A stretch of DNA of 64,000 bases from NCBI GenBank assembly GCA_034440575.1, contig JAOTOL010001450.1:434001-498000 (forward strand), read 5' to 3'. A program made the translations under genes and the position numbers. The notes under the pieces were generated by a model. That model was not told where the DNA came from. It saw only the letters and a list, made by a program, of their open reading frames with translations, and ran no database searches. Position 1 is the first letter of the stretch. Each line of letters starts with the position of its first letter. Of this stretch, positions 2,782 through 58,659 are shown piece after piece. The DNA is from Imbricaverruca yamaguchii (lineage: Eukaryota; Arthropoda; Thecostraca; Neoverrucidae).

Positions 2782-3002
2782 TGTGCCCGTTCTGCCCGAG
2801 CACGGTGTGCCTGTGCGGCCGCGGCGAGCGGACCACCGCGCCGGCCGCGTCGGCGCCGGCGGGCGGCGGCGGCGGCCGCGGCCGGCGCGGTCAGCTGTGG
2901 ACCAGCCGGCGGCGCTCGTCCGACTCGCGCTACGTCATCGACTCCGAGGACGAGCTGGAGGTGCTGGTGGAGCGCGCCGCCGCCGAGGTGCTCGGCGATC
3001 GG
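2782..3002 (+). CDS. HERC1: HERC1 exon 1 of window: CPFC motif and acidic helical segment
   Basis: Open segment between a TAG acceptor (2780-2781) and a GTGAGA donor (3003). It reads [15 protein letters not shown], a Gly/Ala-rich linker, then [20 protein letters not shown] and ends VLGDR. The CxxC pair and a nearby CLC suggest part of a metal-binding site completed by the next exons. The start phase is 1 and the end phase 0, which fits exon 2. The acceptor lacks a good pyrimidine tract, so the left edge is the least certain part. The last codons and the donor are duplicated once immediately downstream. Confidence 0.6.
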
Positions 3003-4819
3003 GTGAGAGCCGCTGCCGAGGTGCTCGGCGATCGGGTGAGAGCCGCCTTGAGCATGCTTTGGTCGTGCGGTAGCACAGTGGGGTGATCGTCAGTTGAAGT
3101 CTCCCAAATCTAGCCGAGACGAGGTAAGATTGTTTACATTGTATTGCCAAAGGAGGGAGAGCACAATTATTTTTGCGGACTCGGCGAGAATAAAAATACC
3201 TGGTAACTTGTGGGTAATTGATTTTCTTCATAGCTTCTGGATTCTGTTCATAGCCATGCTATTGTTGAACCTTTCGGCCGTTACTTTTAGTTTTTTTTGC
3301 TGTCCATAATTGAATTGTTTGCGAACTTGTTTGACTTCTGGCTGGTGATCGTGCTGACATAAGAACTGCGGGAGTATTTTCACCTTTATGTCAAAATAGC
3401 TTATTTCGGAGATAGTCTACTGAGTGAACAAGAACGTTCATTTTATCCAGCCACCTGGATTGTTTATCTTAGATTAGCAGCTTTTTTTTATGCCTTCATA
3501 GGTTCAGGAACTTGACAAGCCCACCAAAATGCATACCTTGAGCGGAGACGATGCTGGCCTGCTGCGATCCCGTTTTTGTGTGACGCTTAATCAAGCTTGG
3601 ACTGATACACCCTGTGCACTAGCATAACTGCTCGCTAATTAACTTGCCAGGACGGGAATGGTTCAGCCTTCCCAGTGTCAGGTGACCCATCTCCGACCGG
3701 CGTCTCCGCTGAGAAGTCCACACCGCCGCCCACCGACCAGTGTCACCACCGAAGCTGTGCCACGGCTAACACCGCTCCAACGCTCGACCACCACTGTGAC
3801 GTGCTTCGCACTCCTCTCGGATATTTGCTATACATATAGTGTGTTTGGGCATCATCACGAGGTGTATCTACTGTGGTGTGTCGTGCTACTTGTATCATGG
3901 ATTAGGGACACTGCATGATTAGCCCAGTCGATGCGTCCCTAAACTCCATTTACTTTAACCTTGTAGATAATCCTAAATATATTCCTCTAAATTGCCAGTC
4001 AACCATCGTGAGTTAGCTGCTGCAGTATCACTGGAGGTAGCGAGCCAATTGGAACCGCTGTGCATCATGTAACGCGTTCTTTGTCACATTGTAAAGTGTT
4101 CTAAATTGAGTCCCACTCTGGAGACGACGGGGCACCGCAACTGTTGTGTGACGTCATTACGGCAAGCCCGCGGCGATCGCTCGGGCGGTGACGCTGCGAC
4201 GCGGCGGCTGTATGACGTCGTCATGACGTGTCGCACCCTAACTTAGACAAGGCGACGCCGCAGTATTGTGACGTCAGCACGGCGTGTCCGCAGGCGCACT
4301 CTGACTAAAGCGGCGCACTGTCTGACGTGACAGAGCCGACGCCGCAGTAGTGTGACGTCAGCACGGCGTGTCCGCAGGCGCACTCTGACTGACAAGCCGA
4401 CGCCCCAGTAGTGTGACGTCAGCACGGCGTGTCCGCAGGCGCACTCCGACTCTGACGAGGCGACGCTGCAGTAGTGTGACGTCAGCACGGCGTGTCCGCA
4501 GGCGCACTCTGACTCTGACGAGGCGACGCTGCAGTAGTGTGACGTCAGCACGGCGTGTCCGCAGGGGCACTCTGACTCTGACGAGGCGACGCTGCAGCTG
4601 TGCGAGGTGTGCAGCTCTCTGGTGTTGGACCTGGCGCGTCACCAGCGCTCCACCCACCCGGGCTGCTCGCGGCCCTGGCTCAACTCGTTCTGCGGCGCCC
4701 TGCTCGGTAGGTGGCCGCTGAGGTGGCCGGCGGCCCCGGGCGGGTGCGCCTGAGGCCAGCACCAACTGTCCTCCGAGCCGGCTCGGCTGTGCCGGCTCTG
4801 AGTTGCAACAGCCGTGGGC

Positions 4820-4850
<31 letters not shown>

Positions 4851-7800
4851 TGTGTCGGTGTCGGTGTCTGTGTCTGTGTCTGTGTCGGTGTCTGTGTCGG
4901 TGTCGGTGTCGGTGTCGGTGTCTGTGTCTGTGTCGGTGTCGGTGTCTGTGTCTGTGTCTGTGTCTGTGTCGATGTCGGTTTCGATGTCGGTTTCGATGTC
5001 GATGTCGATGTCGATGTCGATGTCGATGTCGATGTCGATGTCGATGCCGGTGCCGGTGCCGGTGCCGGTGCCGGTGTCGGTGCCGTGTGGTGAATAGCCG
5101 TGTCCGATGTGAGGGATGGTGATGAGGGAATCGGAGAAATGGGTGCCGATGATCAAGTCTGGTCGAAGCGCCCTAAAGCGCAAATAGCTGACTAACGAGA
5201 ACAGAATGCATGCCGATTTGAAGAATTCTGTGTGGGAAGCTCAGACGCGCTGGCCAGTCAAGTTTTCACGTGAACAGCTGTTGGGCTTCACGGTGCGATC
5301 GCATGGATGTGTAAAAAAACGGCCGTGCTATTGTTGACTGGCGGAAATCGGCAGGTGTGCCGCGTTGAAACCACCACGCCACATACGGCACACATATCGC
5401 CACATACCGCAGGTGGGGCGTGGCCGCGGTGTGGCACGTACCACCAGTGACGTGCCACCTGTACCTGTGTGTGACCTGTCACCTGTCATGCCGCCACCAG
5501 TGACGTGCCACCCGTACCTGTGTGTGACCTGTCACCTGTCATGCCGCCACCAGTGACGTGCCACCTGCACCTGTGTGTGACCTGTCACCTGTCATGCCGC
5601 CACCAGTGACGCGCCACCCGCACCTGTGTGTGACCTGTCACCTGTCATGCCGCCACCAGTGACGTGCCACCCGCACCTGTGTGTGACCTGTCACCTGTCA
5701 TGCCGCCACCAGTGACGTGCCACCTGCACCTGTGTGTGTGACCTGTCACCTGTCATGCCGCCACCAGTGACGTGCCACCCGCACCTGTGTGTGACCTGTC
5801 ACCTGTCATGCCGCCACCAGTGACGCGCCACCTGCACCTGTGTGTGACCTGTCACCTGTCATGCCGCCACCAGTGACGTGCCACCTGCACCTGTGTGTGA
5901 CCTGTCACCTGTCATGCCGCCACCAGTGACGTGCCCCCGCACCTGTGTGGAACCCTCACCCTTTAAACCCAGTGACGCCACCTGCACCTGTGTGTGACCT
6001 GTCACCTGTCATGCCGCCACCAGTGACGTGCCACCTGCACCTGTGTGTGACCTGTCACCTGTCATGCCGCCACCAGTGACGTGCCACCTGCACCTGTGTG
6101 TGACCTGTCACCTGTCATGCCGCCACCAGTGACGCGCCACCTGTACCTGTGTGTGACCTGTCACCTGTCATGCCGCCACCAGTGACGTGCCACCTGCACC
6201 TGTGTGTGACCTGTCACCTGTCATGCCGCCACCAGTGACGTGCCACCTGCACCTGTGTGTGACCTGTCACCTGTCATGCCGCCACCAGTGACGCGCCACC
6301 TGCACCTGTGTGTGACCTGTCACCTGTCATGCCGCCACCAGTGACGCGCCACCCGTACCTGTGTGCAATTCCAGTGCACCCGTCGCAGGCGTCGCCGGCC
6401 GGGCCCAACTACGTGCTGTGCGACGTGTGCACGGAGCGCTACTCGTCCCAGACGCCCTCGGGCCGACGCAGCTCGAGCCACAGTGTGGCCGTCCGGCCGG
6501 CGGCCGACGTCGCCCCCAGCGACCTGCTGCTGGCCGCGCACACCGACCAGGACGGTAGGTCGGGGGAGGGGGCGTCGTGTCTGCGGCTCAGCCGGCTCCG
6601 AGACGATGGGTAGTTGTGTAGAGTTAGCGGAAGTCGGGTCGATGTCTGATCGCCATTGCTTGCCAACATCATGGGGAATCTTGTGTTCCCCTTTTAGTGT
6701 ATTGGTACTGATATTGGACATATGACATTTGGTGTGTTGGGGTTATAATTTATTTATCTTTGATTTGCATCCGATTTATTGTGTCCACGTCATCACCGTT
6801 GCAAGTTGTCGCGCCACGTAGCCTTTCCATTCCGTAACTCCTTCATAACTTAACACTGATAGAACCTGCCTTCCGTTATGTTGCTCGCGCCGATGCGATC
6901 GTCCTCACCATTGCATGGTTTCGTGACGCGGGTGGTCTCGTGACGTGACGGGGGTGGTCTCGTGACGTGACGCGAGTGGTCTCGTGACGTGACGCGGGTG
7001 GTCTCGTGACGTGACTCGTGTGGTCTCGTGACGTGGCGCGGGTGGTCTCGTGACGTTACGCGGGTGGTCTCGTGACGTGGCGCGGGAGGTATCGTGACGT
7101 GACGCGGGTTGTCTCGTGACGTGACGCGGGTGGTCTCGTGACGTGACGCGGGTGGTCTCGTGACGTGACGCGGGTGGTCTCGTGACGTGACGCGGGTGGT
7201 CTCGTGACGTGACGCGGGTGGTCTCGTGACGTGACGGGTTCGTGACGTGACGCGGGTGGTCTCGTGACGTGACGCGGGTTGTCTCGTGACGTGACGCGGG
7301 TGGTCTCGTGACGTGACGCGGGTGGTCTCGTGACGTGACGCGGGTGGTCTCGTGACGTGACGTGCGGTGGTCTCGTGACGTGACGCGCCGTGCGGCCGCA
7401 GAGCCGGAGTCGCCGCCGCTGGCGGCCTGCCCGGTCGGCCAGTCGACGTCGCCGTCGTCGTCGTCGGAGGTGTTCGCCCAGCTGACGCCGTTCCTGGCGT
7501 CGGAGCGGCAGCGGCCCGAGCCGGTGCCGTTCGCCGAGCCGGACGCGCTGGGCGCCAGCCGCGTCCCCGCCACGACGGCGGCCGAGCCGACGGCCGGCGG
7601 CGAGCGCGCCGAGCCGGCCGCCGGCGCGCGCCACCGCTCGCTGGGCGAGCAGGCGGCGCTGCTGACGGCCGCCGGCGACCGGTCGGCGGCGCTGCGACAG
7701 GTGACGCGCGCCGGCCGCGTCCTGCTCTGCCGCGCCGCCGTCATGCGCGTCGTGCAGTACGTCGCCAGCAGGTGAGATACGCGGGGGGCGTGAGAGTGCG

Positions 7801-10800
7801 GTTTGAGGCGAGGAGTGCGTGATACGGTGGTGTTAATGCCCCATGTACTGCCTGGTATGTGTCAGTATTCTCGATTACCGTTAGTGCTACATTACTCTTG
7901 GAAAGCGATCAAGTTTCACTGGTTGGCTATTCAATTTTGTGATGTCTGCTGTCGTAGTCTGAAATGTACACCGTTGTGTACGCTATCGCTATCACTATCA
8001 CTATCAATAGTCGTTCATGCATTCTGTGCACTTTTTGTAGTGTATGCCCGTGCCGCACTTTTTGTTCGGTGTGACGGATTCCCACATGGTCCCGGTGTTC
8101 CGGCCCCGGCCGTGGTGTGCCGCGGCGCCGCCGGCCACCATGTGACCCCGCTAACCGCGTGCTGTGTCCGGGCAGCGGCAGCGAGCGTCACCTGGCCAGC
8201 ACGCTGCTGGCCGTCGGCCTGGGCGACGTGCAGCTGCTGGTGCGCTTCATGTGCCTGACGGCGGCCGGCCGGGTGCAGCCGGCCGGCGAGGCGGGCTCGC
8301 CGGCGGCCGGCCGGCCGGCCGCCTCTGCCGTGGCCGCGCTGCCGGACGCGGCCGCCGCCGGCGTGCGCGCGCTGAGCCGCGCCGTCGGCGCCCTGGCGGC
8401 CGCCGACTCGGACACGGCGCGCGTGCTGGTGCGCCTGTGCACGCAGGACCTGCTGGCGGCGGCCGTGGCGGCGCTGGGTGGTGGTGGTGGTGGCGGCGCC
8501 GGCGCCACCAGCCTGGCCGTCACGCAGACGCTGGTGGAGCTGCTGACGGCCGGCACCATCCTCAGCTGTCAGGGTGAGGCAGGTGCGGTGTTGGGGTGAG
8601 GCAGGTGCGGTGTTGGGGCCGTGATGAGCCGTCAGGGTGGGGCTGGATCACGGGACAATACTCGAGTGTCAGGGTGAGACTGGATGCATGAACCATACTG
8701 AGCTGTCTGGATTGAACGGGGTTCTAACTCCGTACCAGGCTTTCGATAGGATAGCTGTTCTTGGTCTGGTGGTGGTGATCGGCCACATCACAGCAAGACG
8801 TCCACTCCGTTTACGTTTGGTACTATTTGCGAAACGTCAGCCTTCGTCTCATCCCGCGGTGCGTGGATATTATGCTCCATGCGATGGTGTGTTCGTACAG
8901 CGTGATAACGGGTATGCGATTCTAACCGTCGGATCTCAACGTGTGCTGTGCCGTGGAGCTGCATCCCTCGACGTCTGCGCTGTGTTGGTGCGAACACAGC
9001 GCCGTGTTGTAGTGCCGACACAGCGCTGTGTTAATGTCGGCAAATCTGTGTCTGTGCTTTGCTGTGTGTTCCTATTGGTCGCCGGCTGCTCGTCTTGCGT
9101 TCCGTCTTTTGGCCTGACCGTGTGCACCGCACCCGCTCAGCCGACCCCCGGAAGTCTCCGCCGGGCAGCCCGGGCGGCAGCTCGCCACCGTCCGCCACCG
9201 ACCCGCTCAGTCAGCTGGCGGACGCCCTCAGCGCCTGCGTGCTGTCCGTGCGGGCGTCGGCGCCTCTGCGTACCTGGGCCACCCAGCAGCTGGTGAGTGT
9301 GTGGGTTACTGATCCACTGCACACCTGGGCCACACAACAGCTGGTGAGTGTGTGGGCCACTGATCCACTGCACACCTGGGCCACACAACAGCTGGTGAGT
9401 GTGTGGGTTACTGATCCACTGCACACCTGGGCCACACAACAGCTGGTGAGTGTGTGGGTTACTGATCCACTGCACACCTGGGCCACACAACAGCTGGTGA
9501 GTGTGTGGGCCACTGATCCACTGCACACCTGGGCCACACAACAGCTGGTGAGTGTGTGGGTTACTGACTCACACCTGCACAAAACACCTGGGCCACACAA
9601 CAGCTGGTGAGTGTGTGGGTTACTGATCCACTGCACACCTGGGCCACACAACAGCTGGTGAGTGTGTGGGTTACTGATCCACTGCACACCTGGGCCACAC
9701 AACAGCTGGTGAGTGTGTGGGCCACTGATCCACTGCACACCTGGGCCACACAGCAGCTGGTGAGTGTGTGGGCCACTGATCCACTGCACACCTGGGCCAC
9801 ACAACAGCTGGTGAGTGTGTGGGCCACTGATCCACAGCACACCTGGGCCACACAGCAGCTGGTGAGTGTGTGGGCCACTGATCTACTACATACCTGGGCC
9901 ATAACTGTTGTTCGTTGTATCGTTGGTTCGAATCTCATAACCGGTGGGATTACCTGGTACACCCGCGACCAATCGGCGTGAGAGATTGGCGACGCTATAT
10001 TGCCTATGTCTAGCAAACACACGTATTGTAAAAGAACATATTTTACACACGGAGTAACCAGATAGACTATGCGGATTGGAGATTGTTTGAGCAGGTTTTA
10101 TCGCAGTTGAGGGGCACATCTGCATCAATTGTTCACCGCCCACGCCTGAACGACAATATTCGTCCCCTTTGGTCTGCGGCTTGTGGGCATTCCCACGGCT
10201 GGTTCACCAACAACTGACTCGACGTTTCCGGCGTGCTCCGCCAGGTTCGCTGTCTGTCGGTGTGCGGGTCGCCGCGCCAGTCGCCTCGCCAGTCGCCGCT
10301 GCCGCCGCCAGAGGAGAGCACGCTGTGTGACCTGGGCGGCTGCATGCCCCGCCTCAGGTCACACCAGGTGCAGGGTCACGACGGCAGGGTCACCCAGGTC
10401 GCGTGGAGCGCCCACCGCAGCTGGCTGGCCACCTGGTGAGAAGAATTGTCCGCCAGAATTGTCGGAATGTTGGCTGTCGATTCCTGTGTATGCTCTTGGC
10501 CAGGGTTGCATTTGTGTTCTCGAATGCATGGATGTGGAAGGGCAAGTTTTTGGATAACTGAATGTTGAATAACTGAATGTTGCATAACTGAATGATAACT
10601 GATAATTGAATGTTGCAGCGGCTGTGACGGCACGGTGCGCCTGTGGTCGGTGGGCGGCGCCGGCGTGCCGGTGCTGGAGCAGACGCTGGTGTTCCACCTG
10701 AGTCCGACCGTGTACGGGCCGGAGCTGCAGAGTCCGCTGCTGGCGCACCTCCGCTGGGGCGACGCCGGCACCATGGTGGCCGTCTGCATGGAGAACACGC

Positions 10801-13800
10801 TCAACGTGTGGACCGTGCCCGGTGAGATGGGCTGGGGGAGGTCCCGGGAGAGGGTGTGGAGAACACGCTCAACGTGTGGACCGTGCCCGGTGAGATGGGA
10901 CGGCAGGGGAGGGTGTGGAGAACACGCTCAACGTGTGGACCGTGCCCGGTGAGATGGGCGGGGGGGGACGGGGGAGGTCCCGGGAGAGGGTGTGGAGAAC
11001 ACGCTCAACGTGTGGACCGTGCCCGGTGAGATGGGCGGGGGAGGGTGTGGAGAACACGCTCAACGTGTGGACCGTGCCCGGTGAGATGGGACGGGAGGAG
11101 AGGGTGTGGAGAACACGCTCAACGTGTGGACCGTGCCCGGTGAGATGGGCGGGGGAGGTCCCGGGAGAGGGTGTGGAGAACACGCTGAACGTGTGGACCG
11201 TGCCCGGTGAGATGGGACGGGAGGGAGGGTGTGGAGAACACGCTCAACGGTGGACCGTGCCCGGTGAGATGGGACGGGGGGGAGGGTGTGGAGAACACGC
11301 TCAACGTGTGGACCGTGCCCGGTGAGATGGGACGGGAGGGGAGGGTGTGGAGAACACGCTCAACGTGTGGACCGTGCCCGGTGAGATGGGACGGGATGGG
11401 AGGGTGTGGAGAACACGCTCAACGTGTGGACCGTGCCCGGTGAGATGGGCGGGGAGGACCGGGAGTCCCGGGAGAGGGTGTGGAGAACACGCTCAACGTG
11501 TGGACCGTGCCCGGTGAGATGGGCGGGGGAGGGTGTGGAGAACACGCTCAACGTGTGGACCGTGCCCGGTGAGATGGGCGGGGGAGGACCCGGGAGAGGG
11601 TGTGGAGAACACGCTCAACGTGTGGACCGTGCCTGGTGAGATGGGACGGGAGGGAGGGTGTGGAGAACACGATCAACCCGCGGACCGTGCCCGGTGAGAT
11701 GGACGGGGGAGGACGGGGGAGTTCTCTGGAGGAGGGTGTGGAGAACACGTTCAACGCGTCAAGCATGCGGTTTGCTTCTGGTTTGGTGCTGATCCTGCTA
11801 TTCACAATGCTGAGCTCTTGGGTGGGAAACCTTTCTATTCCTCTTCCGTCTTCGGGTGGAACATCTTCCCTTCCGTCTTCATCTCCTCTGTTCGGATTTC
11901 ACGCTGCATGCGTGTTTCGATACATGCGAGTTCGAGGTGCCGTTTTGCATTGGTCCAAAAGTTGTGAACTCAAACTATTAGTCTTACATTTCATGCGTGC
12001 ATTTGAGCATGTGTAATCCATCACTTTCCTATATTCTTGCAGCTACCCATCTCTTAAAAGGTAGGCTGGATCTGACCCCCCCCCCCGACAGACTCGCATC
12101 TCTTCATCTCGGAGGAGGCCGGCTGTATCTAACTCCCCCACCCGACAGACTCGCAGCTCTTCATCTCGGAGGAGGCCGGCTGTATCTAACCCTCACCCCC
12201 GACAGACTCGCAGCTCTTCATCTCGGAGGAGGCCGGCTGGATCACAGCGCTGAGCTGGCCGGAGCCGACCGAGGAGGAGGGCGGCGGCGGCGGCCGACGG
12301 CGGCCGGCGCTGCTGCTGGGCCGCGCCGACGGCCAGCTGGTGCTCGTCACCGCCCGCCGACAGCCGGCCGACGGCCGCGACGCCGCCGACGTCGAGTTCG
12401 GCCGGACCGAGCTGGAGCACTGCGGCCGGCGCGGAGGTGACCGGCCCGGCGGCGGCGGCGGGGGGCTCGGTGTCGTGAGATGGTCAGCAGGGTGGGAGGC
12501 CGGGGTGGAGGTGACCGGCCCGGCGGCGGTGTGGTGGGGGGGCTCGGTGTCGTGAGATGGTCAGCAGGGTGGGAGACCGGCGTGGAGGTGACCGGCCCGG
12601 CGGCGGTGGGGGGGTGGTGGGGGCTCGGTGTCGTGAGATGGTCAGCAGGGTGGGAGGCCGGGGTGGAGGTGACCGGCCCGGCGGCGGTGGGGGGCTCGGT
12701 GTCTTGAGATGGTCAGCAGGGTGGGAGGCGGGTGGGGTGGAGGTGACCGGCCCGGCGGCGGTGTGGTGGTGGGGGCTCGGTGTCGTGAGATGGTCAGCAG
12801 GGTAGGAGGCCGGGGTGGGACGGGGCGGGGGCTCAGTGTAGCGAGATAGCCATCAGGGTAGGAGGCCGGGGTGGGGGCCGTGGGTGTCGCGAGATAGAGA
12901 CCATGGTGGGGCTCAGTGTGTCGAGATAGCTAGCAGGGTGGGAGACCGGGGTGGGGATCAGTGGAGCGAGATAGAGACCATGGTGGGGCTCAGTGTGTCG
13001 AGATAGCTAGCAGGGTGGGAGACGGGTGGGGCTCGGTGTCGCGAGATAGAGACCATGGTGGGGCTCAGTGTGGCGAGATAGCTAGCAGGGTGGGAGACCG
13101 GGGTGGGGCTCGGTGTCGCGAGATAGAGACCATGGTGGGGCTCATTGTGGCGAGATAGCTAGCAGGGTGGGAGACCGGGGTGGGGATCAGTGGAGCGGGA
13201 TGACGGGCATGGCTGTGGTAGGAGGTCGGGGTGGGGTGTGTAGCAGGTGTGGCAGCGGGATGGCGGGCATGGTTGTGGTAGGAGGTCGGGGTGGGGGTTC
13301 AGTGTAGCAGGATGGCTGGCAGGGATGTGCTGTCGGACCAGGGTGGGACTCAGTGTAGCGGGATGGCTGGACAGGAATGTGGCGGGGTGGGGGCAGGTGT
13401 TGGCTCTGTGTAGTGAGATAGCCCGCGGGTGTGGAGAGGGCAGAGCTGGGTGCAGTGGGGCATTGAAAGGTCGATCACGGAGTTGCGACGATCGGCATGG
13501 AGAGGGGGTCTCTGTGGAGCGAGAAGCGGTGTGGAGGAGAGGAACTTTGTGTAGTGGCAGAGGTTGGTGGGGCGGGTGAGATAGGCACGGAAAGAGGGAC
13601 ATTGGAGTGGTGGTGGTTGGTCGGCGTCAGTCTTAAGCACTGATCCGTGTAGAGTGATTGCAATACATATGGAGCAACGACAGGAACGAGATGTTGTCTT
13701 CATTGTTAGGTGGCCATGGTTGAGATAATGTTCTGTAATGCCACAACGCGTGTGGCCTTCTGCTGTTGCCGCCTCTGGTATGAGGTGTATATGGTATATA

Positions 13801-28800: not shown

Positions 28801-31800
28801 TGCTTCATTCCAGGTGTGCCTGATGTACTCGAGAATGGTTACGCATTGTGGCAACGACGTTAGGCAGGTTGTGGACAACTTCGGTCTGCTCTGACCTGCG
28901 GCAGCGTGATCACCTACGGAATGCGCACGGCCGAATCCCGATATCACGGAATGGAGTGGCCGGTTTAACAGCAGTGCCCAGTGACAAGTGAAGTCATTCA
29001 GAGCAGGTCAATCCAAACCGACCGAGTCAGGATGTCCAGTCGCGCACCGTTCCACCACGAGGCAGTCCACCCGATCCCCTTACTACCGTAGCTCTCGCGT
29101 GATGTGAACCCCAACCGACCTGACGCCCGTTCTGTTCCACCACGAGGCAGCCCACCCGATCCGCTTGCTACCGTGGCCGACCGCTCGCTGCCGCTCACTA
29201 GCATGATGCCGGTCCCAGCTGACGTGACGCCTGTTCCCCAGCCGGTGGAGGCCATGTCCGGCCTGGGGGTGCGCAAGGTGCTGTGCGGCGGCCAGTTCAC
29301 CGTGTTCCTGACGCACTGCGGCCAACTGTACACGTGCGGCATCGACCGGCTCATCGGCCAGCCGGACAACAGGATGCGCGGACACACGAGGCCGCAGCAG
29401 GTACAGCCGTTTGCCCTCCTTTCGTGCTTCGGGATCGGGTGGTGGTGTGCCCCCCCCTCCCGACCCATGACGTGCCCCTCGGGTGGCGGGGATCCATGAC
29501 CGGGCGGCGTTGTACCCACGAGTCGTGACTCCCAGGTGGTGAGAGTCCACAACTGGGCGGCACTTTACGACCTGACCTCTGACCGTGGTTACCCGTGGTC
29601 AGGTGGTCGGACTGCGGGACCGGGTGGTGGTGGACGTGGCTGTGAGCGCTCCACGACCTGACCTGACCTCTGTTGACCCGTGGTCAGGTGGTCGGACTGC
29701 GGGACCGGGTGGTGGTGGACGCTCCACGACCTGACCTGACCTCTGTTGACCCGTGGTCAGGTGGTCGGACTGCGGGACCGGGTGGTGGTGGACGTAGCGG
29801 TGGGCGCTCCACGACCTGACCTGACCTGACCTCTGTTGACCCGTGGTCAGGTGGTCGGACTGCGAGACCGGGTGGTGGTGGACGTGGCGGTGGGCGCCGA
29901 GCACACGCTCGCGCTGACCGCCGACGGCGACGTGTTCGGCTGGGGCAGCAACAACGACGGCCAGCTGGGACTCGGCCACACCGCCGCCGCCCGCGAGCCG
30001 CAGCTGCTGGCCGCGCTCTCCGGCAAGAACATCCGCCAGGTGGGTCTGCGCGCCGGGTCGGCTCGGGGTGTCGTGGTCTCCGTCCAGGCGGTGTGTCCCC
30101 GCAGCTGATCCAGTGCCGTCGCTGGCTCGGAGACAGCCGTGGCGCCGCCGGCTCATAACCACTGGCAGAGCACGCTCCCTTAAACACACAGAACTAATCA
30201 ATAATCGGAGACAGCCATCGAAGCGGCCGGTTTAGTCTCGTGATTTGTTGTTTGTGTTCTCTAAAGTGGACAGATGTTGCAGCCGTAACGAATGTGTTCG
30301 CCATCGGCCCCGGCCGGACCGGTGGCCATGCTGTGCCGTGCCGTGCCGTGCCGTGCCGTGCCGTGCCGTGCTGTGCTATGTTGTGTCGTGCCATGCTGTG
30401 CTGTGCTGTGCTGTGCTGTACCGTGTGCTGTGTACAAGGTGCTGTGGCACAGTATCGCTGCGGCAGTACAGTGAACGTCGCCTGCTGGTTTTGTTTGTTT
30501 TTGTTTATTGTTGGTGCTTGTGGCGCCGCCCACACTTTTCCCGTGGCCGCGGGATTGGGAAATGTCCTGGTGGCCAGTCAACCCGGGACCTTTGGTCGCT
30601 AGCCCGGCACCGTAACCAGTCGGCATACGCCTCGCCTGCTGGTGACGGAGCTGTCGAGCAGTGATGACCAATGACAAAAGACAGTGGTGATCAAATAGAG
30701 GCGAGACTGGCGCTGCGCAGTGACAACGGCATGCGCCTTAGCACCGCGCAGGGGGACGAGTAGTCTGGGAGGAAGTTGCCCGTCTCACTATCGAAAGATT
30801 GTGGGTTCGAGTCTCACCTGTTGCTACTCTTCGCCCGCGGCCAATCAGCGTAAGAGGTAGGCGACGTTACATGACTCAACGGTCGACGTGTCGTGAAGCC
30901 AATAACCACCACCACCGCACCGCGCAGTGGTCCTGCCGGTGCAGGATTGGCAACCACGTGGCGGCAGTCGGCTTGTGGACCAGTCGCCACTGTGCTCTCA
31001 CGGTAGCCCGCGCAGGCATCCACTATATTGCGAACAATTTTAGCGAAAGCACAGGAGTTTCAGAAATAAGTAAAGCGCATTTTGAGAGTTCGGAATAGTG
31101 CACTCAAATGTACTATGCGTGCGCAACATTTAGCAGAGTGCCTTCAGTTTCAGCATATGTGCGTTTAACCAAAAACCCATATGAGCAGAAATTCGCTACA
31201 ATGCTGTTGAAATCTAGCTATTTGCGGAATATGGTGCATCTTGCCCAAATGCACTATACCGAATTATTGAATTAGCGAACGTACTGTGCTGTGTTACGGT
31301 CCCCTTCTCTCGTAGCTTTCCCGCTCAGAGTGTGCCCCATGACCAGTTCAGCTCGACACCCGTCATCAGACCGACGCCAGCCACACAGTCGCCTGGCCTC
31401 GGAGCGGGCAGGTGGCGCCGCATGGCGACATGGCAACATGACTGGCAGCCGGCTGTCCTTGAACAAGAATGCTCGCACTTCGAAGAGAAACCTGCTGCGA
31501 ATCAAAATTAGCAAGACAGGCGTGAAGAAAGCTGTGTGAAGCAATTGTCATTTGAAATGCTGAAGACAATGTTGAGATTTCACAAGCATGGCGGTCCCTC
31601 GGTGTCGGTCGGATGAACAGCTGCCATACATGCCCGGGAGCCGAGTCGTTCGGGCATCGCTCTCGCTCGTAATCAGACTGACTGCGTCGGTGACGTTGAC
31701 GGGGACCGACTGAATGCTGCTGTGTCGGCGACTGTAACGAAGACTGACCGACTGACCGTGTGTGTGTGGGGGGGGGCATATCTCTGCTGGCCGGTGCCAC

Positions 31801-33177
31801 AGTGTGTGTCGTGTGTGCCGGCAGATCTCTGCCGGCCGGTGCCACAGTTTGTGTCGGCGACTATACCCGGCTGCCGTGACCGTGACCGTGACCGTGACCG
31901 TGACCGTGACCGTGACCGTGACCGTGACCGTGACCGTGACCGTGTGTGCCGGCAGATCTCGGCCGGCCGGTGCCACAGTGTGTGTCGTGTTTGGGCAGAT
32001 CTCTGCCGGCCGGTGTCACAGTGTGTGTCGTGTTTGGGCAGATCTCTGCCGGCCGGTGCCACAGTGTGTGTCGTTTTTGGGCAGATCTCTGCCGGCCGGT
32101 GCCACAGTGTGTGTCGTGTTTGGGCGTCCGGCCTGCCTTTGTTTCCTGTGTGTTTTTGGGCAGTCTCTGCCGGCCGTGCCACAGTGTGTGTCGTGTTTGG
32201 GCAGATCTCGCTGGCCGGTGCCACAGTGTGTGTGTGTTGGGCAGATCTCGCCGGCCGGTGCCACAGTTGTGGGCTTCCGGCCGGTGCCACAGTGTGTGTC
32301 GTGTTTGGGCAGATCTCTGCCGGCCGGTGCCACAGTGTGTGTCGTGTTTGGGCAGATCTCTGCCGGCCGGTGCCACAGTGTGTGTCGTGTTTGGGCAGAT
32401 CTCTGCCGGCCGGTGCCACAGTGTGTGTCGTGTTTGGGCAGATCTCTGCCGGCCGGTGCCACAGTGTGTGTCGTGTGTGCCGGCAGATCTCTGCCGGCCG
32501 GTGCCACAGTGTGTGTCGTGTTTGGGCAGGTCTCTGCCGGTCGGTGCCACAGTGTGTGTCGTGTGTGCCGGCAGATCTCTGCCGGCCGGTGCCACAGTGT
32601 GTGTCGTGTTTGGGCAGATCTCTGCCGGCCGGTGCCACAGTGTGTGTCGTGTTTGGGCAGATCTCTGCCGGCCGGTGCCACAGTTTGTGTCGGCGACTAT
32701 AGCCGGCTGCCGTGACCGTGACCGTGACCGTGACCGTGACCGAGTGTGTCGTGTGTGGGCAGATCTCTGCCGGCCGGTGCCACAGCGCCGCCTGGTCGTC
32801 GCCGCCGGTGGGCCGCCGCTGTCCGGGCGTGTCGTGCGGCCCCAGTCTGGGCGTGCCGGCCCAGGTGCCGCCGCAGTGCGGCCGACTGCAGCAGTGCTCG
32901 CCGGCCGCGCTGCGCCGCCGCCTCCTGCTGCTGCACAGATACTCGGACCTGGTGTACGCCAGCTGGCGGCTGCTGCCGCTCGTCGACCAGGCGAGTCATC
33001 CCCCGCTATACACACACACACACGCACACATAGCAGGGTGATTAAGGCTTAGTTGGGTGATGGGTTAGCCTCGTCATTCTATTTTTGGAGATTCATGTTT
33101 ACTTTTGAACTTAGTAACTTTTCTACTCCTATCGTGAAGAAGTTCCGCCCCGTTTGGAGATGCATATATAAATATAT

Positions 33178-33216
<39 letters not shown>

Positions 33217-36200
33217 TTATTTTTTTGTGTGTGCACCTTGTATGTGCCCGCGCCTGAAGGCGGGTCAGATCCCTCTAACCACTGCAACGCACACACCACA
33301 GCACTATGGTTACTACACTGCATTGTAGCCTGGATGCCGTCTGACCTGCGGTGTCGGTGTCCACAGCCGTGTGACCTGCTGGCGCCGGGTCTGTCTGACC
33401 TGCGGTGTCCCGTGTCCACAGACGTGTGACCTGCGGTGTCGGTGTCCACAGACGTGTGACCTGCTGACGCCGGGCCTGTCTGACCTGCGGTGTCTCCTGT
33501 CGAAGTCGTGGACCTGCGGTGTGGTGTCCACAGTCGTGTGACCTGCTGACGCCGGGCCTGTCTGACCCGCGGTGTCTCCTGTCGACAGTCGTGTGACCTG
33601 CGGTGTCGGTGTCCACAGACGTGTGACCTGCTGACGCCGGGCCTGTCTGACCCGCGGTGTCTCCTGTCGACAGTCGTGTGACCTGCTGACGCCGGGCCTT
33701 TCCCGTGTCGACAGTCGTGTGACCTGCGGTGTCCCGTGTCCACAGACGTGTGACCTGCTGACGCCGGGCCTGTCTGACCCGCGGTGTCCCGTGTCCACAG
33801 TCGTGTGACCTGCTGACGCCGGGCCTGTCTGACCCGCGGTGTCCCGTGTCGACGATGCTCGCCGGCCTGTCTACTGTCGTGTGACCTGCTGACGCCGGGC
33901 CTGTCTGACCCGCGGTGTCTCCTGTCGACAGTCGTGTGACGCTGCCCGGGTGCCGGTGTCTGACAGACGTGTGACCTGCTGACGCCGGGCCTGTCTGACC
34001 CGCGGTGTCTCCCGACGTGTGACCTGCTGACGCCGGGCCTGTCTGACCCGCGGTGTCTCCTGTCGACAGTCGTGTGACCTGCGGTGTCGGTGTCCACAGA
34101 CGTGTGACCTGCTGACGCCGGGCCTGTCTGACCTGCGGTGTCGGTGTCCACAGACGTGTGACCTGCTGACGCCGGGCCTGTCTGACCGTGTGCCGCTGAC
34201 GCGGGCCTGTCTGACCTGCGGTGTCGGTGTCCACAGACGTGTGACTGCTGTGGTGTCACAGACGTGTGACCTGCTGACGCCGGGCCTGTCTGACCCGCGG
34301 TGTCCCGTGTCGACAGTCGTGTGACCTGCGGTGTCCGTGTCCACAGACGTGTGACCTGCTGACGCCGGGCCTGTCGGCGTGACGTGACCTGCTGACGCCG
34401 GGCCTGTCGGCGGTGACGTCGCCCGAGTTGCGGCCCCTGCTGGCGCCGCGCGTCTACACGCTGCCCATGGTGCGCAGCCTGGGCAGGACCATGGTGCAGG
34501 TGAGAACTAGGCGACGCCGACGTAGGCGTCATGCACGGCCGCGGGTGTCTACGTCGTGGGTGGTGCTTACGTCGGACGGCGCCGGCGTGGGCGTCACACA
34601 CGGCCACGGGTGTCTGCGCCGTGGCCGTGGTGATTGCCGATGCTGGAGCACTGCACTCTGGAGACCCGGCTCCAGGAGTGAAGAAGGCTGTTTTGTCGGG
34701 TTGGGAACCACAGAGTGGTTGGAGTGTTGAGCTTTGGATACCTCTCGTTATCGACGTGCCCCTGAAGCCCGAGACATTTGTCTCGGGTTTCATCACTCGC
34801 ACCGCTCGAACATTTCCCAATCCATCGGCCCGCCGGCGAAACAGTGTGGGTGGCGCCACTAGCAGTGTTGCATGAAGTGCTTCATGAAACACCCAACAAA
34901 AAATGCTGTTTTATCATGTAAAGCGGTATAATTATAGTGTTCAGTGACTATCGTGTGGTCAGTGCAATCCGTCTGCCTTAATGCAGCAAGCTACCACTGT
35001 CAGGTGTAAATTAATGGTTATATTGTAATTTGCCATAGACTCACGAAAAAAATGTAGCTGCAGTATTGTTAACTCTGTGTATAGACAACTGATCATATTC
35101 TAGCTTCATCTTGCATACGCTCCTAACGTTAAATATCCTGCCTAGGTATTGGCCATGTACATTCGCATACAGCCTGTGCTTACGTCACTAAACGTCGGCC
35201 ACAGCCAGTGTTCGCTTCACGTACCACAAGCCAGAGCCAGAGTCTGCGTCACGTGATACTAGGCGTTTGCGCCGCACCTGACCTCCTCACCACCCGCCAG
35301 GGGAAGAACTACGGGCCGCAGATCACCGTGAAGCGGCTGGCGGTTCGCAGTCGGTCCTGTCGACCAATCTTCCTGCAGATCGCCCGCCAGGTGGTGCGGC
35401 TGCGGCCGTCCGAGCTGCGGCTGCCCAGCCGGGCCTGGAAGGTGGGTGTTGTGTCCTGCCCAGCAGGGCCTGGAAGGTCGGTGTTGTGTCCTGTCCTGCA
35501 TGGCCTGGAAGATGGGTGCTGTACCCTGCCCAGCAGAGCCTGAGAGGCGGGTGTTGTGCCAGAGGGACTGCCCAGCAGGGCTTGAAAGGTGGGTGCTGTC
35601 CAACAGAGCCTGGAAGGTGGGTGTTGTACCCCGCCCAGCAGAGCCTGAGAGGTGGGTGTTGTGCCAGGGGGACTGCCCAGCAGGGCTTGCAAGGTGGGTG
35701 CTGTCCAACAGAGCCTGGAAGGTGGGTGTTGTACCCCGCCCAGCAGAGCCTGAGAGGTGGGTGTTGTGCCAGGGGGACTGCCCAGCAGGGTTGAAGGTGG
35801 GTGCTGTTCAACAGAGCCTGGAAGGTGGGTGTTGTACCCCGCCCAGCAGAGCCTGAGAGGTGGGTGTTGTGCCAGGGGGACTGCCCAGCAGGGCCTGGAA
35901 GGTGGGTGTTTTACCAAGGTGGACTGTCCTGCATGGCTACAAAGGTAGGTATGTGCCCTGTGCTGCGTGACCTGATAGCCTGGAATGTGGGTGTTGTGTC
36001 CTGCCCTGCATGGCCTGCGAGGTGGGTTTTGTGTCAAGGGAACTGTCGTGCAAGACCAGGTGTGTGCTGCACCTAGGGGGACTGTCCTGCGGGGTTTTGG
36101 GGGTGGGTGTTGTACAGGTGGTGACTGTCCTGCGGGGCCTGGGAGGTAGGTTTTGGGGGTGGGTGGTGTACAAGTGGTGACTGTCCTGCGGGGCCTGGGA

Positions 36201-39200
36201 GGTAGGTGCTGGAACTGTACAAGTGGTGACTGTCCTGCGGGGCCTGGGAGGTAGGTGCTGGAACTGTACAAGTGGTGACTGTCCTGCGGGGCCTGGGAGG
36301 TAGGTGCTGGAACTGTACAAGTGGTGACTGTCCTGCGGGGCCTGGGAGGTAGGTTTTGGGGGTGGGTGGTGTACAAGTGGTGACTGTCCTGCGGGGCCTG
36401 GGAGGTAGGTGCTGGAACTGTACAAGTGGTGACTGTCCTTGGGGCCTGGGAGGTAGGTGCTGGAACTGTACAAGTGGTGACTGTCCTGCGGGGCCTGGGA
36501 GGTAGGTGCTGGAACTGTACAAGTGGTGACTGTCCTGCGGGGCCTGGGAGGTAGGTGCTGGAACTGTACAAGTGGTGACTGTCCTGCGGGGCCTGGGAGG
36601 TAGGTGCTGGAACTGTACAAGTGGTGACTGTCCTGCGGGGCCTGGGAGGTAGGTGCTGGAACTGTACAAGTGGTGACTGTCCTGCGGGGCCTGGGAGGTA
36701 GGTGCTGGAACTGTACAAGTGGTGACTGTCCTGCGGGGTCTGGGAGGTAGGTGCTGGAACTGTACAAGTGGTGACTGTCCTGCGGGGCCTGGGAGGTAGG
36801 TGCTGGAACTGTACAGGTGGTGACTGTCCTGCGGGGCCTGGGAGGTAGGTGCTGGAACTGTACAAGTGGTGACTGTCCTGCGGGGCCTGGGAGGTAGGTG
36901 CTGGAACTGTACAAGTGGTGACTGTCCTGCGGGGCCTGGGAGGTAGGTGCTGGAACTGTACAAGTGGTGACTGTCCTGCGGGGCCTGGGAGGTAGGTGCT
37001 GGAACTGTACAGGTGGTGACTGTCCTGCGGGGCCTGGGAGGTAGGTGCTGGAACTGTACAAGTGGTGACTGTCCTGCGGGGCCTGGGAGGTAGGTGCTGG
37101 AACTGTACAGGTGGTGACTGTCCTGCGGGGCCTGGGAGGTAGGTGCTGGAACTGTACAGGTGGTGACTGTCCTGCGGGGCCTGGGAGGTAGGTGCTGGAA
37201 CTGTACAGGTGGTGACTGTCCTGCGGGGCCTGGGAGGTAGGTGCTGGAACTGTACAGGTGGTGACTGTCCTGCGGGGCCTGGGAGGTAGGGTGCTGGAAC
37301 TGTACAGGTGGTGACTGTCCTGCGGGGCCTGGGAGGTAGGTGCTGGAACTGTACAGGTGGTGACTGTCCTGCGGGGCCTGGGAGGTAGGTGCTGGAACTG
37401 TACAAGTGGTGACTGTCCTGCGGGGCCTGGGAGGTAGGTGCTGGAACTGTACAAGTGGTGACTGTCCTGCGGGGCCTGGGAGGTAGGTGCTGGAACTGTA
37501 CAGGTGGTGACTGTCCTGCGGGGCCTGGGAGGTAGGTGCTGGAACTGTACAGGTGGTGACTGTCCTGCGGGGCCTGGGAGGTAGGTGCTGGAACTGTACA
37601 AGTGGTGACTGTCCTGCGGGGCCTGGGAGGTAGGTGCTGGAACTGTACAGGTGGTGACTGTCCTGCGGGGCCTGGGAGGTAGGTGCTGGAACTGTACAGG
37701 TGGTGACTGTCCTGCGGGGCCTGGGAGGTAGGTGCTGGAACTGTACAGGTGGCTGTCCTGCGGGGCCTGGGCTGTGTGTGCCTGCGGGGCCTGGGAGGTA
37801 GGTGCTGGAACTGTACAGGTGGTGACTGTCCTGCGGGGCCTGGGAGGTAGGTGCTGGAACTGTACAAGTGGTGACTGTCCTGCGGGGCCTGGGAGGTAGG
37901 TGCTGGAACTGTACAAGTGGTGACTGTCCTGCGGGGCCTGGGAGGTAGGTGCTGGAACTGTACAAGTGGTGACTGTCCTGCGGGGCCTGGGAGGTAGGTG
38001 CTGTGAACTGCGGGTGGAGCAGGTGGTGACTGTCCTGCGGGGCCTGGGAGGTAGGTGCTGGAACTGTACAGGTGGTGACTGTCCTGCGGGGCCTGGGAGG
38101 TAGGTGCTGGAACTGTACAAGTGGTGACTGTCCTGCGGGGCCTGGGAGGTAGGTGCTGGAACTGTACAAGTGGTGACTGTCCTGCGGGGCCTGGGAGGTA
38201 GGTGCTGGAACTGTACAAGTGGTGACTGTCCTGCGGGGCCTGGGAGGTAGGTGCTGGAACTGTACAAGTGGTGACTGTCCTGCGGGGCCTGGGAGGTAGG
38301 TGCTGGAACTGTACAAGTGGTGACTGTCCTGCGGGGCCTGGGAGGTAGGTGCTGGAACTGTACAGGTGGTGACTGTCCTGCGGGGCCTGGGAGGTAGGTG
38401 CTGGAACTGTACAGGTGGTGACTGTCCTGCGGGGCCTGGGAGGTAGGTGCTGGAACTGTACAAGTGGTGACTGTCCTGCGGGGCCTGGGAGGTAGGTGCT
38501 GGAACTGTACAAGTGGTGACTGTCCTGCGGGGTCTGGGAGGTAGGTGCTGGAACTGTACAAGTGGTGACTGTCCTGCGGGGTTTTGGGGGTGGGTGTTGT
38601 ACAGGTGGTGACTGTCCTGCGGGGCCTGGGAGGTAGGTGCTGGAACTGTACAAGTGGTGACTGTCCTGCGGGGCCTGGGAGGTAGGTGCTGGAACTGTAC
38701 AGGTGGTGACTGTCCTGCGGGGCCTGGGAGGTAGGTGCTGGAACTGTACAGGTGGTGACTGTCCTGCGGGGCCTGGGAGGTAGGTGCTGGAACTGTACAG
38801 GTGGTGACTGTCCTGCGGGGCCTGGGAGGTAGGTGCTGGAACTGTACAAGTGGTGACTGTCCTGCGGGGCCTGGGAGGTAGGTGCTGGAACTGTACAAGT
38901 GGTGACTGTCCTGCGGGGCCTGGGAGGTAGGTGCTGGAACTGTACAGGTGGTGACTGTCCTGCGGGGCCTGGGAGGTAGGTGCTGGAACTGTGGGTCCTG
39001 TGTGGCACGCCCCTAACCTGGAACCATTGCATGCGACTTGACCTGTAACCCAACTTGTAACTTAGCTCGTCATCTGACCTTTGGCGTGGCCCATGACCCA
39101 ATTTTTGGCGTGGCCCGTGACCCAACCTTCGGCCTGACTAACCCAACCCGTGATGCTTAACCATGGGCCACCCGTGGCGTGGCCCGTGACATAATTTTCG

Positions 39201-42200
39201 GCCTGACTACTCTAATCCGTGACTTGACCTTTGGCGTGGCCCATGACCTGACCTTCGGCCTGTCTAAAATTGGCACAAAATCACGTTGTTGTCGACGTGC
39301 CCCTAAACATCGATTCATCATCATCGGCCTGTCTAACCTGACCCGTGACCCGACCGGTGACCGGATCCGTGCCGTCTGCCGCCGCAGGTGAAGCTGGTGG
39401 GCGAGGGCGCCGACGACGCGGGCGGCGTGTTCGACGACACCATCACCGAGATGTGCCAGGAGCTGACGACCGGCGCCGTGCCGCTGCTGGTGCCCACGCC
39501 CAACGCCGTCGCCGACACCGGCTGCCACCGCGACCGCTTCCTGCTCAACCCCGAGCTCACCTCGCCGCACCAGCTGAGCCTCTTCAAGTTCCTCGGTGAG
39601 CTGGCGCCGCCCGCCGCCGAGCGGGTGCTAGTGAACGCCGAGCGAACGCGCCCACGTGTGGGACGGTTGCCTTTGGCGTGGTGTGGGTGGGTTCCAGTGT
39701 GTGTGGAGTGAGGTGGTCGGAGGCTGGTTCCCTTGGTTCTCCGGATGTCAGCTATTGGCTTGAAGCTGTGTGCTGTTCAATTTTCTGAGATTTCCTCATC
39801 GTGCGTTTTTTTTTTTATTTTGGAGTTGTTCATAAGCTGGGCTACCAAGGGCTCTGCACAATTGTCATTATGTATACCATTGTCTAGTGGGATGTGTCAT
39901 TGTACGGTTTTTGTACCATTGCATGTGCCGTTGTACATACAATGGTTTCCGTCGTTCTCGGTACGGCTACTTGACAGTACTAGAGGAAACTTCATAGGCT
40001 CACTCTTGCTTGACCATCGATACTTCGTTTTGCAGATTAGCTCGTACAAATCACTGGCATATTATTCCACATTTTCCTGCGCAAGGTTCCCGGCACATGA
40101 CACGGTGCATCTCCTCGAACAGGCATTCTCCTCGGAGTAGCCATTCGCACCAAGAAGCCGCTGGCTGTGCCGCTAGCGCCGTTCGTGTGGAAGCTGCTGG
40201 CCAACATGAGCCTCAGTCTGGACGACCTGGAGGAAACCGACTCGCTCTTCACCCAGAGTCTGCGCTACGTGCGCGACCTGAGTCGCGACGTTCCCGAGGA
40301 TGCCCTGCACGAGGTGGGTCCGGTCCCCGGGGATACCCTGCACGAGGTGGGTCCGGTCCCCGAGGATGCCCTGCACGAGGTGGGTCCGGTCCCCGGGGAT
40401 ACCCTGCACGAGGTGGGTCCGGTCCCCGGGGATACCCTGCACGAGGTGGGTCCGGTCCCCGGGGATGCCCTGCACGAGGTGGGTCCGGTCCCCGGGGATG
40501 CCCTGCACGAGGTGGGTCCGGTCCCCGGGGATACCCTGCACGAGGTGGGTCCGGTCCCCGAGGATGCCCTGCACGAGGTGGGTCCGGTCCCCGGGGATGC
40601 CCTGCACGAGGTGGGTCCGGTCCCCGGGGATGCCCTGCACGAGGTGGGTCCGGTCCCCGTGTCCGGTCCCGGGGATACCCTGCACGAGGTGGGTCCGGTC
40701 CCCGAGGATGCCCTGCACGAGGTGGGTCCGGTCCCCGAGGATGCCCTGCACGAGGTGGGTCCGGTTCCCGAGGATGCCCTGCACGAGGTGGGTCCGGTCC
40801 CCGGGGATACCCTGCACGAGGTGGGTCCGGTCCCCGGGGATACCTGCACGAGGGGGGCGTCCCGGATACCCTGCACGAGGTGGGTCCGGTCCCCGGGGAT
40901 GCCCTGCACGAGGTGGGTCCGGTCCCCGGGATACCGAGGGTGGGTCCGGTCCCCGGGGATACCCTGCACGAGGTGGGTCCGGTCCCCGGGGATGCCCTGC
41001 ACGAGGTGGGTCCGGTCCCCGGGGATACCCTGCACGAGGTGGGTCCGGTCCCCGGGGATGCCCTGCACGAGGTGGGTCCAGTTCCGAGGATGCCCTGCAC
41101 GAGGTGGGTCCGGTTCCCGGGGATGCCCTGCACGAGGTGGGTCCGGTCCCCGGGGATGCCCTGCACGAGGTGGGTCCGGTCCCCTGGGATACCCTGCACG
41201 AGGTGGGTCCGGTCCCCGGGGATGCCCTGCACGAGGTGGGTCCGGTCCCCGGGATACCCTGCACGAGGTGGGTCCGGTCCCCGGGGATGCCCTGCACGAG
41301 GTGGGTCCGGTCCCCGGGGATACCCTGCACGAGGTGGGTCCGGTCCCCGAGGATGCCCTGCACGAGGTGGGTCCGGTCCCCGGGGATGCCCTGCACGAGG
41401 TGGGTCCGGTCCCCGGGGATACCCTGCACGAGGTGGGTCCGGTCCCCGGGGATACCCTGCACGAGGTGGGTCCGGTCCCCGGGGATACCCTGCACGAGGT
41501 GGGTCCGGTCCCCGGGGATACCCTGCACGAGGTGGGTCCGGTCCCCGGGGATACCCTGCACGAGGTGGGTCCGGTCCCCTGGGATACCCTGCACGAGGTG
41601 GGTCCGGTCCCCGGGGATACCCTGCACGAGGTGGGTCCGGTCCCCGGGGATACCCTGCACGAGGTGGGTCCGGTCCCCGGGGATACCCTGCACGAGGTCG
41701 GTCCGGTCCCCGGGGATACCTTGCACGAGGTGGGTCCGGTCCCCGGGGATACCCTGCACGAGGTGGGTCCGGTCCCCGGGGATGCCCTGCACGAGGTGGG
41801 TCCGGTCCCCGGGGATACCCTGCACGAGGTGGGTCCGGTCCCCGGGGATACCCTGCACGAGGTGGGTCCGGTCCCCGGGGATACCCTGCACGAGGTGGGT
41901 CCGGTCCCCGGGGATACCCTGCACGAGATGAATATTGACTGATACATGGATGGGGGTGCTCTATGCTAACGAGTGGCATGTCGAGTTATAAGAACTGAGC
42001 TTGTGTTCGATGATCACGGGTATGTGCATGTCGACCGTAACCTACTGCCCTGACTCACACCCACTACCTCACCTTGTAGTATTTCTGTTCAGAGTACTTA
42101 TGGGATATAAACGCATCTGAATATGGCCAACTTCGGACGAATGGGCGTTAAGATGTTTTGTAATTATTGTTATTATACAATGTGGGCCTTTTGTTCGGTA

Positions 42201-58503: not shown

Positions 58504-58659
58504 GGTTATTGGTTTTACGACACAGCAACCGTTCAGTCATGTAGCGTCGCCAATCTCTCACGCCGATTGGTCGTGGGCGAAGAGTAGCGACATGTGGGAC
58601 TCGAACCCACAACCTTTCGATTGTGAGACGAGCAACTTACCCCTAGGCTACTCGTCCCC
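58504..58659 (-). mobile_element. tRNA-derived SINE, family A (minus strand)
   Basis: On the minus strand it reads GGGGACGAGTAGCCTAGGGG, TAAGTTGCTCGTCTCACAAT, GTGGGTTCGAGTCCCACATG, CCAATCGGCGTGAGAGATTG, GCTACATGACTGAACGGTTG, ending CAATAACC. Full-length and intact. Confidence 0.92.

Follow-up and report, generated by a model that had tools for sequence, protein, structure and literature searches.

Minisatellites in the introns of HERC1 take in the edge of a neighbouring exon, splice site included, far more often than would be expected if they were placed at random. We describe them in a 64,000-nucleotide stretch of the Imbricaverruca yamaguchii genome (the window), which corresponds to contig C1217 positions 434001-498000 in an assembly of 767,457,503 bases and 1430 contigs. 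HERC1 encodes a giant HECT ubiquitin ligase and the window carries its 3' half on the forward strand. We consider it likely that these arrays are minisatellites of the type called mirages in amphioxus. Such arrays would be born near exon edges rich in guanine and cytosine (GC) and grow towards the intron, with splicing kept normal by exon definition.

HERC1 exons were drafted from open reading frames and splice signals, then compared with HERC1 of Amphibalanus amphitrite. The latter was the best match (77% identity over a 1301-residue query region); the next among the 120 matches listed reached 58%. In the tree, the window HERC1 falls within an 11-row clade of crustacean and insect rows (support 100/100) that has no chelicerate or myriapod row. 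Judged by its protein matches, this genome belongs among the barnacles. With greedy match choice, Amphibalanus exon matches had a mean identity of 73% (n = 12). In the same comparison, the Pollicipes pollicipes HERC1 model gave 11 exon matches along a single stretch, with a mean of 65.7%; five Pollicipes exon matches exceeded 85%, the highest being 98%. An automatic splice fit placed 24 window junctions and agreed with the drafted model at 23 donors and 22 acceptors. A single junction of this fit left exon 2 out. As the fit indicated, exon 16 is now taken to begin at 21856 instead of 21841. Junctions that the splice fit could not place are excluded from the counts below.

We focused on the exon edges in the window. 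The original prediction named 16 HERC1 edges, eight donors and eight acceptors, as repeated in the adjoining intron, and each does have at least one extra copy there. Among all 64 window boundaries, 17 have such copies (9 of 32 donors and 8 of 32 acceptors); donor 8573, not named before, is an additional one. Hence, copies of splice edges occur at both 5' and 3' exon boundaries. The GT dinucleotide is intact in 159 of 162 donor copies and AG is intact in 53 of 57 acceptor copies. Fifteen of the 16 named boundaries are each crossed by one array detected by Tandem Repeats Finder (TRF). The sixteenth is acceptor 32763. Here, the array (31951-32692) ends 70 nucleotides before the exon with a CCGTGA run between, and its unit nonetheless holds the edge. 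The units proved longer than the 33 to about 80 base pairs (bp) first claimed, since the 15 arrays that cross an edge have TRF units of 33 to 167 bp, compound units counted. Up to about 60 near-identical sites had also been expected. Near copies of donor 35441, allowing up to 4 mismatches in 21 positions, number 66 across two related arrays, and 65 of them have GT. The figure therefore holds for the DNA; in splicing, exon definition would favour the real site, as the decoys are on its intron side.

Arrays were defined as TRF rows with a score of at least 100 and a period of at least 15, with overlapping rows merged. We scored a crossing if an array took in the edge by at least 4 nucleotides. 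As a null, every array, reduced to a single unit, was given a random position in its intron (likewise collapsed), so that each array counted as one seed. The window has 28 arrays, of which 15 cross an edge compared with 4.15 expected (P = 4e-7), so chance placement is unlikely, as had been argued. The claim that most arrays include an edge stands on the same 15 of 28, or on 18 of 28 if arrays that do not touch the exon but hold its edge in their unit are counted. Upstream parts of HERC1 (160 kb, 37 placeable introns) gave 14 crossings among 26 arrays (4.56 expected, P = 1e-5); each set of introns is thus significant separately. Pooled over 69 HERC1 introns, 29 of 54 arrays cross (8.71 expected under uniform placement, P = 2e-11). 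These crossings involve 29 of 138 boundaries, 12 on the donor and 17 on the acceptor side, and edge-crossing arrays make up 19% of the bases in the 69 introns. Setting the score threshold at 50 or at 200, or defining unit length differently, left the outcome unchanged. Five junctions were added from the Pollicipes model, which placed 26 (19 were the same as earlier and 2 were dropped as weak or conflicting). One upstream boundary, initially at 98399 and outside a smaller 52-array set, was placed at the last array copy (98494) in the 54-array set.

Arrays that do not cross can also derive from an edge. In 5 of 25 non-crossing HERC1 arrays the unit matches an edge well above shuffles; two more reached the lowest shuffle P value, missed the margin and were excluded. 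In total, 34 of 54 HERC1 arrays carry an exon edge and 20 do not. A per-base measure showed no boundary excess, repeated 20-mers covering 39% of intron, 25% of boundary and 5% of exon positions. We rejected this null because each array contributes a single boundary but many bases of intron, and a seed then fills much of the intron.

GC content contributes to the pattern. Units of the 25 non-crossing HERC1 arrays are 63.5% GC compared with an intron background of 51.5%. In unique intron sequence of this gene, GC falls from 65% within 50 nucleotides of exons to 48% beyond 400 nucleotides. Outside HERC1, unit GC is less distinct (53 to 56% versus 49 to 51%). We therefore weighted the null by GC. 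With rates from 47 non-HERC1 arrays, the 29 of 54 crossings compare with 11.67 expected (P = 2e-8), and in the 52-array set 27 crossings compare with 10.9. Arrays crossing, or within 10 nucleotides of, an edge number 36 of 54 against 14.7 expected with GC weighting. Comparison of edges with and without copies gave P = 0.64 for donors and 0.35 for acceptors in GC itself, and P = 0.056 and 0.88, respectively, in GC skew. We conclude that GC accounts for part of the edge excess and that the remainder persists under every correction tried.

The phenomenon extends beyond HERC1. From 50 matches listed we drew 11 other HECT loci on ten other contigs, excluding single-exon or non-contiguous loci. In their 23 introns, 5 of 19 arrays cross an edge (1.09 expected, P = 0.003). 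One intron has a doubtful junction; without it the count is 5 of 18 (1.02 expected). A smaller set of eight loci gave 4 of 14 (0.88 expected, P = 0.008). The crossings are confined to three loci, on C1136, C1315 and C1280. Arrays are also denser in HERC1 (5.7 per 10 kb) than in its flanks (3.4 to 3.6 per 10 kb).

Recurrent, independent arrays instead of one mobile family, as the original prediction held, are supported by the units: when 29 of them were compared in 406 pairs, only 1 pair exceeded the maximum of three shuffled sets. Exonic sequence makes up 9 to 82% of the unit. Unit lengths are indifferent to reading frame, with 18 of 54 being multiples of 3, no more than chance. Unrelated units, use of both exon sides, a variable exonic share and frame-indifferent lengths together fit independent tandem duplications near exon edges. 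Briefly, a short duplication across or beside the edge would copy the last codons with GT, or AG with the first codons. The exon-side copy would be kept by coding selection, so that the array could lengthen only into the intron. Growth to as many as 66 near copies probably proceeds by unequal exchange or slippage. GC-rich exon margins would be the favoured sites, with some further factor at the edge contributing, and the arrays themselves would be neutral. Of 15 edges with at least three copies, 11 have an exon copy that departs from the copy consensus (donors 6 of 8, acceptors 5 of 7), a pattern that either exclusion of the boundary copy from homogenisation, as in mirages, or coding selection would produce.

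The copies would present the splicing machinery with credible decoys. Scored with a splice matrix, the real donor is equalled or surpassed by 92 of the 159 GT copies, and the real acceptor by 32 of the 53 AG copies. Hence, site strength cannot mark out the true site. The decoys all lie on the intron side of real sites. In large introns, splice sites nearest to each other across the exon are preferred, according to PMC9225289. Exon definition would pair the two closest sites flanking an exon, in every case the originals, and so probably shields HERC1 messenger RNA (mRNA) from the decoys. As they stand, introns with crossing arrays are at least 450 nucleotides long, and 1 of 69 introns is below 250 nucleotides.

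Several observations weigh against this account. Once each array is reduced to a single unit, crossing arrays occur in introns as short as 192 nucleotides, shorter than those in which exon definition is commonly presumed to operate. Beyond HERC1, the introns tested lack arrays altogether at 5 of the 11 HECT loci, and crossings are absent from 8. Seven further HERC1 arrays (36 less 29) end within 10 nucleotides of an edge with fewer than 4 exonic nucleotides, where the same subtraction expects about 3. Such arrays, stopping short of the splice site, are unexplained by duplication of the splice site itself. The excess also shrinks under stricter GC weighting: rates from HERC1's own non-crossing arrays raise the expectation to 16.6 (27 of 52 observed, P = 9e-4), and rates from all HERC1 arrays, which over-correct, raise it to 19.0 (P = 0.009). 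In sequence outside HERC1, 1-kb blocks richer in GC are no denser in arrays; any effect of GC would therefore operate at unit scale. Finally, two array-bearing exons appear damaged in the assembly. Exon 25 (34347-34419) as assembled has its first 33 bp duplicated with an in-frame TGA and no read-through, and there is no AG between 34383 and the conserved core downstream. An upstream HERC1 exon that begins at about C1217:372494 and bears an acceptor array shows one surplus base in the last copy compared with the earlier copies and the Pollicipes protein. These may be consensus errors within repeats or real lesions.

The simplest rival is GC alone. Minisatellites would form in GC-rich DNA, exons would coincide with a GC peak, arrays inside exons would be purged and the edge would have no role of its own. 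The GC-rich non-crossing units and the intron gradient are as this predicts. We nevertheless regard it as unlikely, given the crossings left over with rates from outside the gene and the P value of 0.009 that remains even under over-correcting weights. A rival that overlaps with the explanation we favour concerns retention instead of birth: arrays could start anywhere, those tied to a conserved copy in an exon being lost less or remaining recognisable for longer. One edge copy is under coding selection, and the 5 of 25 non-crossing arrays with an edge in the unit are expected of detached remnants. Against this, crossing arrays are not clearly more uniform (89.1 versus 86.9%, P = 0.19), and arrays halting just before an exon seem over-represented, though by subtraction only. 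Retention as the main cause therefore seems somewhat improbable to us. These points bear on the predicted role of exon edges as preferred seeds, which is partly supported: the excess in HERC1 and other HECT loci is real, part of that excess is due to the GC gradient, and within one genome preferential birth at the edge would look the same as preferential retention.

Two further possibilities carry far less weight. Selection of the arrays as splicing decoys, or for creating isoforms, could account for GT and AG being mismatched less than other copy positions (3.4 versus 6.9% in eight donor sets and 2.1 versus 6.4% in seven acceptor sets; rates from few independent arrays, without a significance test). 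However, unit lengths ignore the reading frame and 20 of 54 arrays hold no exon edge, making such selection very improbable. Inflation or misjoining of repeats at exon ends during assembly would explain why two array-bearing exons have reading-frame lesions at the array-exon junction. Yet each edge has a different unit, crossings occur on four contigs, copies are imperfect and, according to PMC3902484, amphioxus PGBD5 repeats of this type were confirmed by new sequence data. We consider an artefact scarcely credible.

Introner elements are dispersed families that also place recurrent sequence with splice signals in introns. The HERC1 arrays share this property but, unlike introners, their units are unrelated. 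Closer parallels are the amphioxus mirages, as described in PMC3087553 and PMC3902484. Mirages are tandem repeats spanning 5' or 3' exon boundaries in a few genes, with varying unit lengths and AG or GT kept in many copies. The boundary copy is described as left out of homogenisation, and regular mRNA splicing, haplotype length differences and somatic instability are reported for amphioxus. The barnacle units likewise span boundaries on both sides, differ in length and keep AG or GT in many copies. What sets the barnacle arrays apart from those described there is that the host is an arthropod, that 29 of them cross edges within the portion of a single gene examined, that an edge can have as many as 66 near copies and that the excess over chance is quantified. 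Intron gain via tandem duplication of AGGT-bearing exon segments, as outlined in PMC4974935, similarly copies a splice site by tandem duplication. In HERC1, by contrast, the unit runs from the end of an exon into the start of its intron, or from intron end into exon start, one exon copy stays and no new intron is needed. Among the top-ranked results of our literature search, with most subscription papers outside reach, exon-edge arrays were evident only for amphioxus. The structure itself is known from amphioxus; as far as these searches reach, the arthropod host, the abundance and the statistical test of edge preference are new.

Table 1. HERC1 and its exon-edge arrays in the window (positions are those of the window)
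Feature	Details	Position	Strand	Evidence
HERC1 3' half	33 exons; exon 1 start not fixed	2906..48247	+	open frames, splice signals, protein match
Donor array, exon 1 (end 3002)	33-bp unit	2976..3047	+	TRF array and edge copies
Acceptor array, exon 2 (start 4565)	63-bp unit	4312..4597	+	TRF array and edge copies
Donor array, exon 5 (end 8573)	22-bp unit, 2.1 copies; only 2 exonic nucleotides	8572..8618	+	
Donor array, exon 6 (end 9292)	51-bp unit, 11 further copies, GT in all	9272..9901	+	
Donor array, exon 8 (end 10821)	unit about 59 bp, 14 further copies	10789..11712	+	
Acceptor array, exon 9 (start 12206)	57-bp unit	12064..12243	+	
Donor array, exon 9 (end 12436)	81-bp unit, copy spacing 74 to 81 bp	12424..12818	+	
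Donor array, exon 10 (end 14390)	62-bp unit	14382..14516	+	
Second array, intron after exon 10	52-bp unit holding exon 10 donor edge	14575..14710	+	
Acceptor array, exon 11 (start 15323)	unit about 64 bp	15017..15328	+	
Acceptor array, exon 12 (start 17490)	unit about 45 bp	16783..17499	+	
Acceptor array, exon 19 (start 24881)	94-bp compound unit	24326..24888	+	
Donor array, exon 19 (end 25062)	40-bp unit, 16 further copies, GT in 14	25048..25650	+	
Acceptor array, exon 23 (start 29851)	unit about 73 to 90 bp	29567..29897	+	
Acceptor array, exon 24 (start 32763)	43-bp unit; array proper to 32692, then CCGTGA run	31951..32785	+	
Acceptor array, exon 25 (start 34347)	compound unit; 33-bp in-exon duplication with stop	33338..34419	+	
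Donor array, exon 26 (end 35441)	35/105-bp unit	35421..35950	+	
Second array, intron after exon 26	49-bp unit matching exon 26 donor edge	36111..38992	+	
Donor array, exon 28 (end 40313)	33-bp unit, 46 further copies, GT in all	40293..41927	+	

Other features were seen in the window. Some arrays end 7 to 14 nucleotides before an exon without including it (6365-6374, 7387-7401 and 14258-14265). An array of 35-bp units occupies positions 1-1136 at the window start, upstream of exon 1. The donor of exon 24, at 32990, is GC (a GC-AG intron). HERC1 protein records of Pollicipes (1564 residues) and Amphibalanus (3754 residues) seem incomplete compared with insect models of about 4700 residues; at a guess, edge arrays might have disturbed gene prediction there. 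An open frame at 50564-52141 encodes 525 residues with a Methyltransf_FA domain (E = 4e-12), and no relative of this protein was found at E 0.001 among 7996 candidates scored in the protein collection. On the minus strand, 58594-58650 is a weak transfer RNA-like match, barely over the Rfam threshold, and is possibly, as a guess, a short interspersed element.

The arrays provide dozens of natural tests of how splicing selects one among tens of near-identical sites, and they tie minisatellite birth to gene structure. We tentatively entertain a broader reading, which we hold to be less likely than not. Exon-intron junctions may be a genome-wide hot spot of minisatellite birth in barnacles, beyond the effect of GC. 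The cause would act on DNA at both exon sides (nucleosome or repair boundaries, for example), be shared independently with amphioxus and drive intron growth. If the phenomenon is general, exon edges would be mutational hot spots that lengthen introns, upset gene models and occasionally harm exons.

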